Assembly (NCBI RefSeq): GCF_900172315.1
Contig: NZ_FWFV01000008.1
Coordinates: 62,001-126,000, forward strand
Direction: 5' to 3'
Source of the DNA: Palleronia marisminoris
Lineage (GTDB): Bacteria > Pseudomonadota > Alphaproteobacteria > Rhodobacterales > Rhodobacteraceae
DNA length: 64,000 nt
Shown here: positions 24,451 to 50,688 of the stretch, piece after piece
How positions within the stretch are numbered: position 1 is the stretch's first letter
Layout of the letters: every line of letters starts with the position of its first letter
Translations under genes and position numbers: made by a program
Notes under the pieces: model-generated
Seen by the model: only the letters and a program-made list of their open reading frames with translations
What the model was told of the DNA's origin: nothing
The model's database searches: none

Positions 24451-24527
24451 GCGGTTGTAGCTCAGTTGGTTAGAGTACCGGCCTGTCACGCCGGGGGTCG
24501 CGGGTTCGAGCCCCGTCAACCGCGCCA
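24451..24527 (+). tRNA. tRNA-Asp (GTC)
   Basis: 77 nt including encoded CCA. Acceptor arms GCGGTTG/CAACCGC, anticodon GTC at 24485-24487 in the loop CTGTCAC, T-loop GGTTCGAGCC all present. Identical to the second copy 107 nt downstream. Confidence 0.97.
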
Positions 24528-24557
24528 CCTTTGCCCGAGGTCATACCGACGAAGAAT

Positions 24558-24634
24558 GCGGTTGTAGCTCAGTTGGTTAGAGTACCGGCCTGTCACGCCG
24601 GGGGTCGCGGGTTCGAGCCCCGTCAACCGCGCCA
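24558..24634 (+). tRNA. tRNA-Asp (GTC), second identical copy
   Basis: 77 nt with CCA; anticodon GTC at 24592-24594. Sequence identical to the copy at 24451-24527. The 30-nt spacer between them is unique sequence. Followed 10 nt later by an intrinsic terminator. Confidence 0.97.
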
Positions 24635-44718: not shown

Positions 44719-45276
44719 TCAGCCGCGGGCCAACGCGGCGATGCCGGTGCGGGCCATCTCGGTCAGGCCGAGCGGCCGCATGAGGTCGGCGAAAGCGTCG
44801 ATCTTCTCGGACGAGCCCGTGATTTCGAACGTGAAGTTCTTCAGCGTGGAATCGACCACGCTCGCGCGGAAGATGTCCGCGAGGCGCAGCGCCTCGACCC
44901 GCTTCTCGCCATCCCCCGACACCTTGAACAGCGCCAGTTCCCGCTCGACGCTCGGGCCTTCGACGGTCAGGTCGTGGACCTCGTGAACCGGCACGATGCG
45001 CCCGAGTTGCGCCTTGATCTGCTCGATCACGGCCGGGGTCCCGGTGGTCACGATGGTGATGCGCGAGGTGTGGCCGGTATGGTCGATCTCGGCCACGGTC
45101 AGGCTTTCGATGTTGTAGCCGCGCCCCGAGAACAGGCCGATGACGCGCGCCAATACGCCGGCCTCGTTGTCTACGATCACGGCCAGCGTGTGCCTTTCGA
45201 TCAGGTCGGCATTCGGATTCCGCAGGTCGTAGGCCGAGTGGCGGGACGATCCCTGTTCGATATTCAGCCGGTTCAT
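44719..45276 (-). CDS. ilvH: Acetolactate synthase small (regulatory) subunit
   Basis: Regulatory subunit giving valine feedback sensitivity to acetolactate synthase. 185 residues: N-terminal ACT domain (HTLAVIVDNEAGVLARVIGLFSGRGYN), then a second ACT-like region (ELALFKVSG..., TFEITGSSEKIDAF). It is 128 nt downstream of ilvB on the same strand, with a hairpin element between. Length above 160 and presence of two domains place it with IlvH/IlvN regulatory subunits. Feedback by valine is known for the family, not shown here. Confidence 0.93.
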   Translation of the reverse strand: MNRLNIEQGSSRHSAYDLRNPNADLIERHTLAVIVDNEAGVLARVIGLFSGRGYNIESLTVAEIDHTGHTSRITIVTTGTPAVIEQIKAQLGRIVPVHEVHDLTVEGPSVERELALFKVSGDGEKRVEALRLADIFRASVVDSTLKNFTFEITGSSEKIDAFADLMRPLGLTEMARTGIAALARG

Positions 45277-45404: not shown

Positions 45405-47159
45405 TCAGACCAGGACGGCGCCGGTTCCGGTGATCTGCCCCTGCGTCTTTGCGTTCGGCAGCAGCATCGTGTTGTGCGCCTCGCCGCTCGGGATCATCGG
45501 GAAGCAGTTCTCGTGCTTCTCGACGAGGCAGTCGAAGATCACCGGGCCGTCGTAGTTCAGCATTTCCATGATCGCGTCATCCAGATCGGCAGGATCGCTG
45601 CACTTGATGCCCTTCGCGCCGAACGCCTCGGCCAGCTTCACGAAGTCCGGGAGCGCCTCGGACCAGCTTTGAGAGTATCGCTCGCCATGCAGAAGCTCCT
45701 GCCACTGGCGCACCATGCCCAGCCGCTCGTTGTTCAGGATGAACTGCTTCACGGGCATGCGGTACTGCACCATCGTGCCCATTTCCTGCATGTTCATCAG
45801 CCACGACGCCTCGCCTGCGACGTTGATGACGAGGCTGTCGGGATGCGCCATCTGCACGCCCATCGAGGCCGGCTGGCCGTAGCCCATCGTGCCGAGGCCG
45901 CCGCTTGTCATCCACCGGTTCGGCTCGTCGAAGCGCAGGTATTGCGCCGCCCACATCTGGTGCTGGCCGACCTCGGTGGTGATGTAGCGGTCCATCCCGC
46001 GCGTCAGCTCTTCGAGGCGCTTCAGCGCGTGCTGCGGCTTGATGACCTTCTCGGAGTTCTCGAAGCCCAGGCAGTCCACCGCGCGCCATTCGTCGATCTG
46101 GCGCCACCATTCGGCCAGCGCTTCCTTGTCGGTCTTGCGGCCCTGGCTCTTCCAGATGCGCAGCAGATCCTCGAGCACGTGGGCGACGTCGCCGATGATC
46201 GGCATGTCGACATGGATGACCTTGTTGATCGACGAGGGATCGATGTCGATATGGGCCTTCACGCTGTTGGGACTGAAATCGCCGGTGCGGCCGGTGATGC
46301 GGTCGTCGAAGCGGGCGCCGATGTTGATCATCAGGTCGCAGCCATGCATCGCGAGGTTGGCTTCGTAAAGGCCGTGCATCCCCAGCATCCCGAGCCACTT
46401 GTCGCCGCTGGCCGGATAGGCGCCGAGGCCCATCAGGGTCGAGGTGACGGGAAAGCCGGTTTCCTCCGCCAGCTCTCGCAGAAGCTGGCTGGCCACGGGG
46501 CCCGAGTTGATGACACCGCCGCCCGAGTAGATGATCGGGCGCTTGGCCGTCGCCATCGCCTCGGCCAACATGGTCAGGATCGCCGGGTCGCCCTTGAGGC
46601 GCGGCTGGTAACGGCTGACATCGGTCTTGCTCTTCTCGACATAGGCGCCGGCGGCGAACTGGACGTCCTTGGGGATGTCGACGAGCACCGGCCCCGGCCG
46701 CCCGCTGCGCGCGACGTGGAAGGCTTCGTGGAGGATGGGGGCAAGCCGGTCCGTGTCCCGGACCAGCCAGTTGTGCTTGGTGCAGGGCCGGGTGATGCCG
46801 ATCGTGTCGGCCTCCTGGAACCCGTCGGTGCCGATCATGAAGGTCGGGACCTGGCCCGAGATGACCAGGATCGGGATCGAATCCATAAGCGCGTCGGTCA
46901 GGCCGGTGACCGCGTTCGTGGCACCCGGCCCGCTGGTGACGATGGCGACGCCGACCTTGCCGGTCGAGCGGGCATAGCCTTCGGCGGCGTGGACGGCGGC
47001 CTGTTCGTGCCGGACGAGGATGTGCTTGATCCCCTCCTGCAGGAAGATCTCGTCATAGATCGGAAGCACGGCGCCGCCCGGATATCCGAACACCACGTCC
47101 ACGCCCTGATCCTTCAGGGCCTGCACTACCATCTGGGCGCCGGTGATGGGCTTGGTCAT
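45405..47159 (-). CDS. ilvB: Acetolactate synthase large (catalytic) subunit
   Basis: ThDP-dependent first common step of valine, leucine and isoleucine synthesis. 584 residues. Catalytic Glu52 in RHEQAAVHAAEGYAR; FAD/ThDP domains with MLGMHGLYEANLAMH and TSGGLGTMGYGQPA. The cofactor metal motif reads AGEASWLMN...NNE, that is GE instead of the usual GD, although the downstream Asn pair is kept. Preceded by the leader peptide and attenuator (47189-47295), so transcription is probably controlled by Val/Ile/Leu supply. ilvH follows. Confidence 0.95.
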   Translation of the reverse strand: MTKPITGAQMVVQALKDQGVDVVFGYPGGAVLPIYDEIFLQEGIKHILVRHEQAAVHAAEGYARSTGKVGVAIVTSGPGATNAVTGLTDALMDSIPILVISGQVPTFMIGTDGFQEADTIGITRPCTKHNWLVRDTDRLAPILHEAFHVARSGRPGPVLVDIPKDVQFAAGAYVEKSKTDVSRYQPRLKGDPAILTMLAEAMATAKRPIIYSGGGVINSGPVASQLLRELAEETGFPVTSTLMGLGAYPASGDKWLGMLGMHGLYEANLAMHGCDLMINIGARFDDRITGRTGDFSPNSVKAHIDIDPSSINKVIHVDMPIIGDVAHVLEDLLRIWKSQGRKTDKEALAEWWRQIDEWRAVDCLGFENSEKVIKPQHALKRLEELTRGMDRYITTEVGQHQMWAAQYLRFDEPNRWMTSGGLGTMGYGQPASMGVQMAHPDSLVINVAGEASWLMNMQEMGTMVQYRMPVKQFILNNERLGMVRQWQELLHGERYSQSWSEALPDFVKLAEAFGAKGIKCSDPADLDDAIMEMLNYDGPVIFDCLVEKHENCFPMIPSGEAHNTMLLPNAKTQGQITGTGAVLV

Positions 47160-47188
47160 CGTGTTCTCTCCGTCTTGCGTCTTGCCCA

Positions 47189-47219
47189 AGAAAAAGCCCC
47201 CGAGGGTGAGGTCGGGGGC
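47189..47219 (-). terminator. Attenuator terminator in the ilvB leader
   Basis: 8-bp GC-rich stem (47196-47203 with 47212-47219) followed on the minus strand by five Us (47195-47191) plus CUU. It lies between the leader peptide stop (47248) and ilvB, the standard place of an amino-acid attenuator. Confidence 0.85.
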
Positions 47220-47237
47220 GCGTCGGAAGTCCTCTCC

Positions 47238-47254
47238 GGGGTGGATGTCACCCC
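47238..47254 (-). promoter_or_regulatory. Pause-type hairpin overlapping the leader-peptide stop
   Basis: 6-bp stem (47238-47243 with 47249-47254) enclosing the stop codon of the leader peptide. In attenuators this hairpin competes with the antiterminator; the full antiterminator pairing was not resolved by eye. Confidence 0.5.
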
Positions 47255-47295
47255 GCGCGCCTGTCTCGCCATACTACTACGATAGGGTTCGCCAT
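47248..47295 (-). CDS. ilvL: ilvB leader peptide, 15 residues, with Ile-Val-Val-Val control codons
   Basis: The short frame encodes MANPIVVVWRDRRAG. It starts with ATG (47295) preceded by GGAGA at 7-nt spacing and ends at TGA 47250-47248. Codons 5-8 are ATC-GTA-GTA-GTA; GTA is rare in this GC-rich sequence, where GTC and GTG dominate. Ribosome stalling there when charged tRNA-Val or tRNA-Ile is scarce would alter folding of the downstream leader and prevent the terminator at 47189-47219. Classic transcription attenuation for branched-chain amino acid synthesis. Seen directly: promoter, peptide and terminator in the proper order; mechanism inferred from known ilv leaders. Confidence 0.85.
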   Translation of the reverse strand: MANPIVVVWRDRRAG

Positions 47296-47321
47296 GATCG
47301 GTCTCCGAGGTCGTGAAGCGA

Positions 47322-47350
47322 GCGATAGTCCCCACATGCGGCACGGTCAA
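47322..47350 (-). promoter_or_regulatory. Promoter of the ilvB leader
   Basis: -35 TTGACC (47350-47345), 17-nt spacer, -10 TATCGC (47327-47322). Transcription would start near 47315, about 20 nt before the leader-peptide ATG at 47295. Confidence 0.55.
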
Positions 47351-47469: not shown

Positions 47470-48321
47470 GTGACGTCGGAATTGCAAGAAGAACGGGGGA
47501 ACGCGGTGTTCGGAACGGCCAAGCGCGTCTGGGCAGAGATGGGACGGACCAAGCTCACGCTGATCGCGGCAGGTGTCGCGTTCTACGGTCTGCTCGGGCT
47601 TTTCCCTGGCATCGGTGCGCTGATGGCGATCGGGGGGATCGTCGCGGAACCGTCGCAGGTTGCCGAGACGCTGGGCTCGCTGGGCAGCGTGATGCCACAG
47701 GCCGCCGAAGAGATCATCATCGGCCAGGCACAAGAGGTCGCGAGTGGTCCGCCCGAGCAGCTGGGCCTCGTCGCGGTCGTGGGCCTTCTGCTGACGCTCT
47801 ATTCTGCGTCCAAGGGGATGCAGGCGCTGATGGACGGGCTGAACCTGGTCAACGACCGCGAGGATGACCGCAGCCTCGTCAAATCGACGGCGATCAAGCT
47901 GGTGCTGACCTTCGGGATGCTGGTGGGGGTATTGCTGTGCGTGGCGGTCGCCGTGGTGGTGCCGGCGGTGCTTGCGTGGTTGCCCTTGGGGAGCAGTACC
48001 GAGCTTCTGGTCATCATCGCCCGATGGCCGGTCCTGCTGGTGATCGCCGGTGCGGGGATCGCGCTGACCTACCGCATCGCACCCTCGGGCGAGCATACGC
48101 CGTGGCGCTGGATCATTCCCGGTGCAGCGCTCGCCTGCGCCCTTTGGCTGGCCGGCACCGCGGGTTTCGCCGTCTACGTGCGGATGTTCGGGTCCTACCA
48201 GGAGACGTTCGGCGCGCTCGGCGGCGTGGTGATCCTGCTGATGTGGCTGTGGGTCTCGGCCACTGTGGTCCTGCTCGGGGCGCTCGTCAGCCGAGTCCTG
48301 CGCGAGGAAGGCGGAACCTAG
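47470..48321 (+). CDS. YihY/BrkB family membrane protein
   Basis: 283 residues with six membrane helices; GVAFYGLLGLFPGIGALMAIGG and AYRIAPSGEHTPWRWIIPGA-type residues with LYSASKGMQALMDGLNLVN identify the YihY/virulence factor BrkB family, often mislabelled ribonuclease BN. Role uncertain; possibly transport. GTG 47470 lacks a good ribosome-binding site; GTG 47505 (preceded by GGGGGAA) is an alternative that trims 11 residues. Divergent from the ilvB leader. Confidence 0.85.
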   Translation: MTSELQEERGNAVFGTAKRVWAEMGRTKLTLIAAGVAFYGLLGLFPGIGALMAIGGIVAEPSQVAETLGSLGSVMPQAAEEIIIGQAQEVASGPPEQLGLVAVVGLLLTLYSASKGMQALMDGLNLVNDREDDRSLVKSTAIKLVLTFGMLVGVLLCVAVAVVVPAVLAWLPLGSSTELLVIIARWPVLLVIAGAGIALTYRIAPSGEHTPWRWIIPGAALACALWLAGTAGFAVYVRMFGSYQETFGALGGVVILLMWLWVSATVVLLGALVSRVLREEGGT

Positions 48322-48420
48322 GGCTTTTCCCCGCCGCCTTGGTATCCTACACCCGTTTGCGAAATCTTGTGTCCCGCAGCCCTTGCGCGGCACATCTTTG
48401 TTCACGAGGGAGGAGACTTC

Positions 48421-49497
48421 ATGAAACGCCGGCAATTTCTGAGCAGCGCCGCGACCGGCGCCGCCGCAGCGGGCCTCGCCGCGCCCGCCTATGCGCAAGG
48501 CAACCGGACGCTGACGATGGTGACGAGCTGGGGCCGCGGCCTCGCAGGTGTCCACGACAGCGCGCAGTACATCGCCGACTCGATCACCGCCATGTCCGAC
48601 GGTGAGCTCACGGTCGATCTGCGCGCGGCCGGCGAGCTCGTCGGCGCGTTCGAGAATTTCGACGCCGTGACCGCCGGACAGGCGGACATGTACCACGCCG
48701 CCGACTACTATTTCACCGGTCAGCACCCCGCCTTCGCGTTCTTCTCGACCGTGCCCTTCGGCATGACCGCGCAAGAGCTGAACAACTGGTACTACCACGG
48801 CAATGGGCAGGAGCTGCACCAGGAGCTTGGCGCGATCTTCGGGATCAAGCCTTTCCTCGTTGGCAACACGGGCCCGCAATCTGGCGGCTGGTTCAACCGC
48901 GAGATCACCGGCGTCGAGGATTTCCAGGGCCTGCGCTTCCGCATGCCGGGGCAGGGGGCCGAGGTGCTCGGCAAGCTTGGCGCGAGTGTCCAGAACCTGC
49001 CGGGTTCCGAGGTGTACCAGGCGCTGTCTTCGGGCGCGATCGACGGGACCGAGTGGATCGGACCCTGGGCCGACGAGGCCGCGGGCTTCCACGAGATCAC
49101 CAAGTATTACTACACCGCCGGCTTCCACGAGCCGGGGCCGGGCCTGACGCTGGGCGTGAACCTGTCGGTCTTCGAAGAGCTGTCGCCGGCCCACCAGGCG
49201 ATCATCGAGAAGGCCTCGGTGGCCGCCAACCTGTGGACGCTGACCCTGTTCATGAAGAACAATGCCGAGGCGCTGAACCGGCTGCGCCAACAGGGCGTCC
49301 AGATCCTGGAGTTCCCCGACGAGGTCTGGGAAGCGTTCGGAACCGCCAGCGAAGAGGTGTTGCAGCAGCACACGAACGATCCGCTCTATGCGAGCATCCT
49401 CGCAAGCTATCAGGAGTCCATGCGCGAGAACTCCGCCTGGATCGGCGAGACCGAGCGGGTCTACGCCCAGCAGCGCGACCGGATCCTCGGCTTGTAA
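48421..49497 (+). CDS. TRAP transporter periplasmic substrate-binding protein, first of two (Tat-exported)
   Basis: Captures an organic anion, probably an oxo- or hydroxy-acid, for the TRAP permease encoded downstream. 358 residues; signal MKRRQFLSSAATGAAAAGLA has a twin-arginine (RRQFL) start, so export uses Tat. DctP-family features resembling R. sphaeroides TakP: DYYFTGQHPAFAFFSTVPFG, GGWFNREI, GLRFRMPG and TEWIGPWAD, which contribute ligand and metal contacts in that family. GGGAGGAG is the ribosome-binding site. It is about 70% similar by eye to the next gene, a tandem paralogue, and is separated from it by a strong hairpin. Confidence 0.93.
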   Translation: MKRRQFLSSAATGAAAAGLAAPAYAQGNRTLTMVTSWGRGLAGVHDSAQYIADSITAMSDGELTVDLRAAGELVGAFENFDAVTAGQADMYHAADYYFTGQHPAFAFFSTVPFGMTAQELNNWYYHGNGQELHQELGAIFGIKPFLVGNTGPQSGGWFNREITGVEDFQGLRFRMPGQGAEVLGKLGASVQNLPGSEVYQALSSGAIDGTEWIGPWADEAAGFHEITKYYYTAGFHEPGPGLTLGVNLSVFEELSPAHQAIIEKASVAANLWTLTLFMKNNAEALNRLRQQGVQILEFPDEVWEAFGTASEEVLQQHTNDPLYASILASYQESMRENSAWIGETERVYAQQRDRILGL

Positions 49498-49544
49498 GGC
49501 CCGCGGCCGGTCGCAAGATCGGTGCGGTCACGCGGATTTGCCTC

Positions 49545-49568
49545 GGGGGACGCTTGTGAGCGTCCCCC
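49545..49568 (+). terminator. Intercistronic hairpin between the two TRAP binding-protein genes
   Basis: Perfect 10-bp stem (49545-49554 with 49559-49568, TGTG loop) with no U-run, 47 nt after the first stop and 43 nt before the next start. Such hairpins after periplasmic binding-protein genes usually stabilise the upstream mRNA and lower read-through. Confidence 0.6.
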
Positions 49569-49611
49569 TCTCTCGACGATACTCGGCGCGCGGAGCACTG
49601 GGAGGACACTG

Positions 49612-50688
49612 ATGGATCGTCGCTCGTTCCTGCGAAGTTCGGCACTTGTCGGGTCGGCTGCCGCTGGTCTGGCCGCGCCGGCCTACGCGCAGGACAAGCG
49701 AACCCTGACGATGGTGACCACCTGGGGCCGTGACCTGGTCGGCGTGCACGATTCCGCGCAGCACGTCGCCGACCGGATTACCGAGATGTCCGGCGGCAAC
49801 CTGACCGTCGAGGTCGTGGCGGCGGGCGAGCGCTTCGATGCCTACGAGGTCTTCGACGCCGTCACCTCGGGCAGCGCCGACATGTATCACGGCGCCGACT
49901 ACTATTTCACCGACAAGCACCCGGCCTACGCGTTCTTCACCGCCGTGCCCTTCGGCCTGACCGCGCAGGAAATGCTCAACTGGTACTATTTCGACGGCGG
50001 CATGGAACTCCATGACCAGCTGGGCGAGATCTTCGGCCTCAAGTCCTTTCTCGCGGGCAACACGGGCGCGCAGGCCGGTGGCTGGTTCCGGACCCCGATC
50101 GACAGCCCCGAGGGGTTCGACGGCCTGCGCTTCCGCATGCCGGGTCTGGGCGGCGAGGCGCTTGGAAGGTTGGGCGCGAACGTGCTGAGCATCCCGGGCG
50201 CCGGGGTATTCGAGGCCCTGTCATCGGGCGCCATCGACGGGACCGAGTGGATCGGCCCCTGGGCGGACGAGAAGGCCGGCTTCCACAAGATCGCAAAGCA
50301 CTACTACACCTCCGGCTTTCACGAACCCGGCGCCGGCCTGTCGCTGGCCATGAACCGCGCGGTCTTCACCAGCCTGACGCCGGCGCAGCGCGCCATCGTC
50401 AAGTCGGCCGCGCTCGAGGCGCATCAGTGGACCCTGTCGCGGTTCCTGTCGCAGAACGGCGCGGCGCTGCAACGGCTGCGCGCGGCCGGGGTGCAGCTGA
50501 ACGAATTCCCCCCGAGCGTCTGGGATGCCTTCGCTCGGGTCTCGACCGAGACGCTGGACCAGTATATGAGCGACCGCCTGTTCGCGGAGATCCGCAACTC
50601 GGTCACGGAATCGGTCCGCAAGTCGTCGGGCTGGATCCAGCGCTCGGAAGGCGCATACCGCACCCAGCGGGACCGCGTGTTCGGCTGA
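49612..50688 (+). CDS. TRAP transporter periplasmic substrate-binding protein, second of two (Tat-exported)
   Basis: 358 residues, same length and domain plan as the preceding gene. The signal MDRRSFLRSSALVGSAAAGLA carries RRSFL, a canonical Tat motif. Conserved TakP-like elements recur: DYYFTDKHPAYAFFTAVPFG, GGWFRTPID, GLRFRMPG, TEWIGPWADE. Differences cluster in the hinge and helical rim, so the two proteins may bind different ligands but feed one DctQM permease. Strong GGGAGGA ribosome-binding site upstream of ATG 49612. A 6-bp hairpin (50734-50751) follows before dctQ. Confidence 0.93.
   Translation: MDRRSFLRSSALVGSAAAGLAAPAYAQDKRTLTMVTTWGRDLVGVHDSAQHVADRITEMSGGNLTVEVVAAGERFDAYEVFDAVTSGSADMYHGADYYFTDKHPAYAFFTAVPFGLTAQEMLNWYYFDGGMELHDQLGEIFGLKSFLAGNTGAQAGGWFRTPIDSPEGFDGLRFRMPGLGGEALGRLGANVLSIPGAGVFEALSSGAIDGTEWIGPWADEKAGFHKIAKHYYTSGFHEPGAGLSLAMNRAVFTSLTPAQRAIVKSAALEAHQWTLSRFLSQNGAALQRLRAAGVQLNEFPPSVWDAFARVSTETLDQYMSDRLFAEIRNSVTESVRKSSGWIQRSEGAYRTQRDRVFG

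Follow-up and report, generated by a model that had tools for sequence, protein, structure and literature searches.

A probable Val/Ile attenuator upstream of ilvBN in Palleronia marisminoris, and possibly related leaders before Bcr/CflA-type efflux genes

The ilvB upstream region

The window, by which we mean the whole stretch of 64,000 nucleotides of Palleronia marisminoris DNA that was analysed, carries on its minus strand the genes of both acetolactate synthase subunits, preceded by a short leader reading frame and an intrinsic terminator. The features are given below in the order of transcription, with what each was read from.

47345-47350, minus strand: -35 element TTGACC (sequence, and TTGAC conserved in relatives)
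47322-47327, minus strand: weak -10-like TATCGC, spacer 17 nt (CATAAT-like sequence at about the same place in many relatives)
47303-47306, minus strand: Shine-Dalgarno sequence GGAG of the leader (by eye)
47248-47295, minus strand: leader peptide ORF MANPIVVVWRDRRAG, 15 codons, stop TGA (sequence, and conservation in upstream regions)
47272-47283, minus strand: putative regulatory codons 5-8, ATC GTA GTA GTA (sequence and codon counts)
47253-47261, minus strand: candidate antiterminator strand A, GGCGCG then CGG, in leader codons 12-15 (duplex, folds, covariation)
47237-47255, minus strand: predicted hairpin over the leader stop codon, CGGGGUG-ACAUC-CACCCCG (folding)
47217-47226, minus strand: candidate antiterminator strand A', CCG-A-CGCGCC, overlapping the first three bases of the terminator arm (folds, duplex)
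47196-47219, minus strand: intrinsic terminator stem-loop of 8 pairs, GCCCCCGA-loop-UCGGGGGC (terminator scan)
47188-47195, minus strand: terminator U-tract TTTTTCTT (terminator scan)
45405-47159, minus strand: ilvB, acetolactate synthase large subunit, 584 aa, ATG at 47159 (Pfam TPP_enzyme N, M and C domains)
44719-45273, minus strand: ilvN/ilvH, acetolactate synthase small subunit (Pfam ALS_ss_C and ACT domains)

The codons of the leader ORF are ATG GCG AAC CCT ATC GTA GTA GTA TGG CGA GAC AGG CGC GCG GGG TGA. The parts of an attenuator are all present, namely a short ORF with a start codon, a Shine-Dalgarno sequence and clustered codons for branched-chain amino acids, a terminator before the first gene, and ilvB with ilvN downstream. 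An earlier note on this DNA had proposed a branched-chain amino acid attenuator here, and this proposal is supported by the gene order, the leader codons, the terminator, the rare GTA codons and the conservation in relatives; the order it had described, of a leader with ATC-GTA-GTA-GTA, a hairpin over the stop codon and a U-tailed terminator before ilvB, was found on the minus strand in every part. The promoter that it had placed at 47350-47322 holds for its upstream half, with TTGACC in place and all 102 leaders examined carrying TTGAC no more than 75 nt 5' of their start codon (99 of them at -50 to -66), and we regard the promoter as supported because of this conservation; in contrast, the -10-like TATCGC is weak, and a consensus promoter scan of the upstream region found none.

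Two terminator-like sites were found in a stretch of 401 bases, counting both strands, against a shuffle mean of 0.3. Because the long ORF upstream, at 47470-48321, runs in the opposite direction, the terminator is most likely part of the ilvB leader transcript. The 66-nt part that contains the terminator folds unusually well in comparison with its shuffles (z -2.85), whereas the fold of the whole 123-nt leader is ordinary (z -1.19). This ordinary fold is what might be expected if the region were simply a 5' UTR that happened to contain a short ORF, with the terminator serving some unrelated purpose, but that explanation is contradicted by the conservation over the family of the leader, the spacing, the promoter element and the codon bias, and we consider it extremely improbable.

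Among the families of Rfam release 15, riboswitches included, none was found in the leader at the gathering score, and loose-threshold scans of the leader returned sub-threshold matches only. Over the whole window the same release gave two tRNAs, which are tandem tRNA-Asp (GTC) genes of equal score at 24451-24631. Looking for paralogues of the leader in the genome of the window gave the known leader as the one strong match, and two more matches at E 1.4 and 1.7. At 48367-50688 lie two similar neighbouring ORFs that, judged by eye, are presumably TRAP transporter solute-binding proteins.

Conservation and codon content of the leaders

Up to 400 nt 5' of ilvB were collected from 126 loci in addition to the window, drawn from 48 matched genomes minus G034 and from the best 80 of at least 587 matches. 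By an automatic rule, a leader and a terminator were found in 108 of these 127 upstream regions, and 102 leaders were kept after removing two duplicates and four outliers (listed: L053, L054; L043, L036, L037, L046). Three leaders that the rule had missed (L021, L080 and L123) were added by hand for the later counts. The other 16 failures of the rule comprise 12 class members outside the family, a cut contig (L091), L086 (Nereida), and two entries, L017 = L056, of Oceaniovalibus guishaninsula, a member of the window's genus in which neither leader nor terminator was seen upstream of ilvB.

The distance from stop codon to terminator is 25-32 nt in 99 of the 102 leaders, and in our own reading of the folds a hairpin spans the leader stop in 12 of 13 folded leaders of the window's genus. 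The earlier note would have taken a lack of conservation of the leader codons or the hairpin in relatives as speaking against an attenuator; this was examined and did not speak against one. With a covariance model, R1, built from 79 of the 108 leaders, a threshold of E <= 0.01 gave matches in 172 of the 198 genomes of the family, of which at least 21 had supplied training sequences, and none in the remaining 26. Two weak matches, L236 (E 3e-4) and L241 (E 1e-3), turned out to be real ilvB leaders, so that weak R1 matches are not always due to chance. In G453, which is possibly a mixed assembly, two ilvB genes (L205 and L237) each have their own attenuator, with different leader peptides.

The use of rare codons in these leaders is striking. 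GTA accounts for 163 of 269 leader Val codons (60.6%) vs. 187 of 4709 (4.0%) in the ilvB genes of the same loci, which bears out the earlier remark that GTA is uncommon; similarly, CTA accounts for 50 of 146 leader Leu codons vs. 63 of 4900 in ilvB, and the share of GTG among Val codons falls from 48.8% in ilvB to 7.4% in the leaders. These counts cover 105 leaders, two pairs of them identical, and L038, with its cut ilvB, gave no background. Val is present in all 105 leaders; Ile, Leu and Val occur together in 93, Leu and Val in 7, Ile and Val in 3 (the set of the window), and Val only in 2. The window's leader indeed contains no Leu codon, as had been noted, but the suggestion that these are missing by design was rejected, since with Ile, Leu and Val in 93 of 105 leaders their absence is a feature of the lineage.

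By standard wobble, GTA is read by the UAC isoacceptor. The draft genome of the window has one gene each for tRNA-Val UAC, GAC and CAC, and with a single UAC gene the reading of GTA would depend on one isoacceptor. ARAGORN confirmed 43 of 44 tRNA matches, and because neither tRNA-Ile GAT nor tRNA-Tyr is among them, this tRNA set may be incomplete. The theory of attenuators, in the available portion of the source (PMC1183508), holds that they favour codons whose isoacceptor loses its charge first.

Candidate antiterminator and folding models

The nature of the antiterminator had been left open in the earlier note. We suggest that it is likely a helix in which leader codons 12-14, GGCGCG in the window and more commonly GCGCATGGG, base-pair with the stretch just ahead of the terminator and extend into the terminator's first 2-5 bases. 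RNAalifold, applied to 79 leaders, gave this helix between the last leader codons and the pre-terminator segment, together with part of the terminator and with no other conserved pairing; the most widely conserved pairing is therefore the long A:A' helix and not the stop hairpin. In the window's genus, GGCGCG or GGGCGC pairs with CGCGCC(C), reaching 3-5 bases into the terminator arm and with weaker inner pairs, and most other members use GCGCATGGG:CCCATGCGC.

Taken as 10 pairs over the 79 leaders, the helix has 89.9% of its cells paired, and 6 of the 10 pairs are changed on both sides. Double-change cells number 23 vs. a shuffle mean of 4.6, and 0 of 500 shuffles reached as many, a fraction that is not a probability because the sequences are related. 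The helix also outdoes every slid version of itself. The core hardly varies, most of the changes being located in the inner pairs and in the outermost pair. A strand-swap comparison was made on a hand-chosen diverse set of 45 leaders, 27 before ilvB and 18 before an efflux gene (the pump leaders described below). Among the 27 ilvB leaders, own strands pair at -18.64 kcal/mol and swapped strands at -16.74 (permutation fraction 0.00005, n = 20000). In the 18 pump leaders, both strands of which are nearly constant within the group, own strands have no advantage (-17.87 vs. -18.42, fraction 0.84), and for all 45 leaders the fraction is 0.0096, with a median share of better-pairing foreign partners of 0.38. 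When 14 pump leaders and 4 ilvB leaders were aligned, 89.5% of the helix cells were paired, and no measure of covariation rose above shuffles. An extension of the antiterminator to codons 9-11 was considered and dropped as weak (own -4.24 vs. swapped -3.91, fraction 0.011; 0.33 in the window's genus alone).

In 100 of 103 leaders, G is the last base of the codon before the CGC of strand A (or TGC, or CAC), this codon encoding ten different residues across the set, and hence it seems to be the RNA rather than the peptide that is conserved. This bears on another explanation, in which the conserved C-terminus of the peptide, RMGR in many leaders and RRAG in that of the window, would act as an arrest peptide or a trans-acting product like peTrpL. 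Many leaders do end in RMGR, and a trans-acting attenuator peptide is known from Sinorhizobium, as stated in the part of PMC7298713 at hand; against this, the third base before CGC is kept while the residue varies, and the residues change together with the paired strand, as predicted by a constraint on the RNA. We thus find a role for the peptide itself quite improbable.

Folding with a ribosome mask was modelled for 104 leaders, L123 having given no terminator under the rule used. As equilibrium means, a ribosome at the stop codon leaves A' with an upstream pairing of 0.01 and the bottom pair of the terminator at 0.96, and a ribosome at the first Ile, Leu or Val codon gives 0.90 for A', 0.61 for the bottom pair and 0.87 for the upper stem. 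The values without a ribosome are close to the stalled ones (0.88, 0.65 and 0.85, respectively), and since A' is then paired in most leaders, this would mean read-through by default. Once the 3' arm is present, the upper stem of the terminator survives on average in every state (means 0.85-0.96), only the bottom pair being loosened; L013, unlike the window, loses the terminator stem in the equilibrium fold. Before the 3' arm exists, arm bases 1 and 2 pair upstream at 0.98 and 0.97 with the ribosome stalled at the first Ile, Leu or Val codon vs. 0.16 and 0.14 at the stop in the 104 leaders, and at 0.94 and 0.97 vs. 0.08 and 0.01 in the window's genus. A stall at the last such codon masks part of strand A, and arm base 2 drops to 0.26.

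The folding with and without a ribosome that the earlier note had called for therefore gave a divided answer: the A:A' state switches before the 3' arm is made, the only stage at which A:A' excludes the terminator, but exclusion is partial at equilibrium, where the bottom pair of the window goes only from 1.00 to 0.88, a weak switch. The energy models partly support the switch, weakly so in the window, and its computed direction is right for control by starvation. For the A:A' helix as antiterminator, this sets covariation among the ilvB leaders beside incomplete exclusion of the terminator. Moreover, the overlap with the terminator is short, and in L235, L239 and L046 A' stops just 5' of the arm, so that direct competition between helix and terminator is not proven.

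The same observations leave some room for a different reading, which we judge unlikely though deserving of weight, in which the branched-chain amino acid attenuator is real and A:A' is a scaffold that presents the stop hairpin, termination being decided by another pairing or by contact between the ribosome and RNA polymerase. It would account for an overlap of only 2-5 bases and for the average survival of the upper stem in equilibrium folds, as well as for the long helix that by eye stays clear of the terminator in L134 (ilvB of G224) and L133; it is opposed by the RNAalifold result, with its lack of any other conserved pairing, and by the helix entering the terminator arm in most leaders of the strand-swap set.

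We keep A:A' as the likely antiterminator in what is very probably a ribosome-mediated transcription attenuator of ilvBN. RNA polymerase would start downstream of TTGACC, and a ribosome would begin the 15-codon leader. With charged tRNA-Val and tRNA-Ile, the ribosome would reach the stop codon and cover strand A in leader codons 12-15, leaving A' without a partner, and the full 8-pair terminator would form and end transcription before ilvB. If charged tRNA-Ile ran low, or charged tRNA-Val of the UAC isoacceptor, by which GTA is read, the ribosome would halt at codons 5-8 and leave strand A at least partly free to pair with A' as soon as this is made. The A:A' helix would then take the first bases of the 5' arm of the terminator (GCC in the window), so that, as we propose, the hairpin could not close down to the U-tract and the polymerase would read through. 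While the leader, its codons, the terminator and the A:A' helix with its covariation among ilvB leaders are read from the sequences, we infer that the ribosome stalls and when, that termination is then lost, and how large the effect is. For the Rhodobacteraceae, this would amount to a widespread switch for branched-chain amino acids, for which an antiterminator is proposed and whose use of rare codons is striking.

Leaders before efflux genes and known systems

R1 was also run over 385 sampled genomes of the class and matched 22 of them at E <= 0.01. The 16 matches below 1e-6 comprise 5 family members, before ilvB, and 11 genomes of other families, in all of which the match precedes an MFS gene that is that of L144 or 52-65% identical to it. 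Six weaker matches (E 3e-4 to 8e-3), preceding neither ilvB nor pump, were discounted as chance matches. The cut-off of TIGR00710 (Bcr/CflA efflux) was exceeded by 4 of 5 scanned proteins, the fifth scoring 199.9 vs. 200.9 bits. Among 36 genomes of the order of G415, two further R1 matches lie before such an MFS gene, and 33 gave no match at E <= 1e-4. The pump leaders are the following.

About 1500-1610, in the orientation of the pump gene: leaders L133, L141-L144, L146-L152, L174, L175, L229, L230, L234 and L238, from several alphaproteobacterial families

These leaders are Val-rich and share the helix and the terminator of the ilvB leaders, the gene that follows them being an MFS efflux gene of the Bcr/CflA type. 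The 18 contain 66 Val codons (L152 and L230 one each), mostly GTC and GTG, with GTA in 12 of 66; L149 has no ATG at the usual place, and the start of L234 is TTG. A second model, R2, built from the 18 pump leaders and from no ilvB leader, matched 17 of the 385 genomes at E <= 0.001, 5 of them by their ilvB attenuators and 12 by pump leaders that had all served in training; it thus yielded no new pump leader, yet it reached the ilvB group independently, and it finds the leader of the window at E 1.3e-7. In G414 there is a second weak R2 match.

Four genomes within the family (G014, G017, G021 and G512) each have a pump leader plus an ilvB leader. In 12 of 13 genomes outside the family, an ilvB leader of such a type is absent from the 300 nt upstream, judged by eye, some of these regions having terminator-like hairpins. 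The remaining one of the 13, G224, has its own ilvB leader, MSLLIVPCAPNEGLA (L163 / L134), with a TGCGCGCCGA:TCGGCGCGCA helix that by eye has no overlap with the terminator. Among 20 loci of pump homologues, the element was found only in L176 (outside the family), L177, L179 and L181. A faint copy of the element (E 2e-4) lies at about 1495-1600 of L240 (G552); a start codon was not seen in it, the locus contains neither ilvB nor the pump gene, and the copy may be a pump leader in decay.

The homology of the two groups is argued for by the success of the R1 and R2 searches both ways and by a shared sequence, CGC ATG GNC CGG TAA CGG. On this sequence evidence we lean, if only slightly, towards a single family of attenuator RNA, with a Val-rich leader whose end codons form GCGCATGG and pair with CCATGCGC at the terminator base, which would control acetolactate synthase in the Rhodobacteraceae and, in some other families, a pump of the Bcr/CflA type, one gene having captured the element from the other; the catalogued family Atu_C8 would belong to it as well. 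Given that the pump Val codons are mostly ordinary GTC and GTG, the pump leaders may report a general slowing of translation, or a shortage of branched-chain amino acids caused by the exported compound. If the pump leaders are the same RNA, a biosynthetic attenuator would have been re-used or borrowed for a transporter of the drug-efflux type, the signal of the pump could be read off its leader, and the "small RNA" family Atu_C8 would need a new description.

This family, Rfam RF02502 Atu_C8 ("Rhizobiales sRNA"), is similar in build. Its model aligns end to end with the leader of the window (47180-47299), at 17.0 bits and thus below the gathering score of 50, and has the same order of parts, namely a Val/Ile-rich start, a GCGCAugGG...CCcaUGCGC helix and a terminator; its consensus contains the ORF-like AUG-AUU-AUU-CUU-GUG-GUG. 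It exceeds its cut-off in 1 of 240 class genomes, in the pump leader L133 of G142 (98.8 bits), before the MFS efflux gene and not before ilvB. Its matches L135 and L136 fall on the two strands of a single site and appear to be due to chance, and the match in L134 is on the strand opposite the ilvB leader. Judged by its sequence, RF02502, which is catalogued as an sRNA of the Rhizobiales, resembles a leader-peptide attenuator.

Among the matches listed from the open-access literature, by titles and the beginnings of abstracts, there was none on a Rhodobacterales ilvB attenuator, on the A:A' antiterminator assignment or on the element before a Bcr/CflA gene. Motifs named ilvB-OMG and ilvB-II, in the accessible portion of PMC10272879, share with the window a uORF rich in branched-chain residues before ilvB and a structured RNA, but their descriptions set them apart by lineage and structure. 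In S. meliloti, an "ilvIH cis regulatory" element is listed with a citation of Vitreschak 2004 in the part of PMC2573895 consulted. The "ilvB leader peptide" of alphaproteobacteria is called previously described, again citing Vitreschak 2004, in the section of PMC1273637 available, and as far as can be told through this citing paper it is like that of the window in class, gene family and proposed control. Also close by description is the attenuation of Caulobacter crescentus ilvBN, which, in the excerpt of PMC4117421 that follows Tarleton 1994, involves tandem Ile and Val codons: like the window, it is found in an alphaproteobacterium, concerns the same operon, and has tandem Ile/Val leader codons and a rho-independent terminator. 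Since both the Caulobacter ilvBN system and alphaproteobacterial ilvB leader peptides have been described, the attenuator proposed for the window belongs to a known kind.
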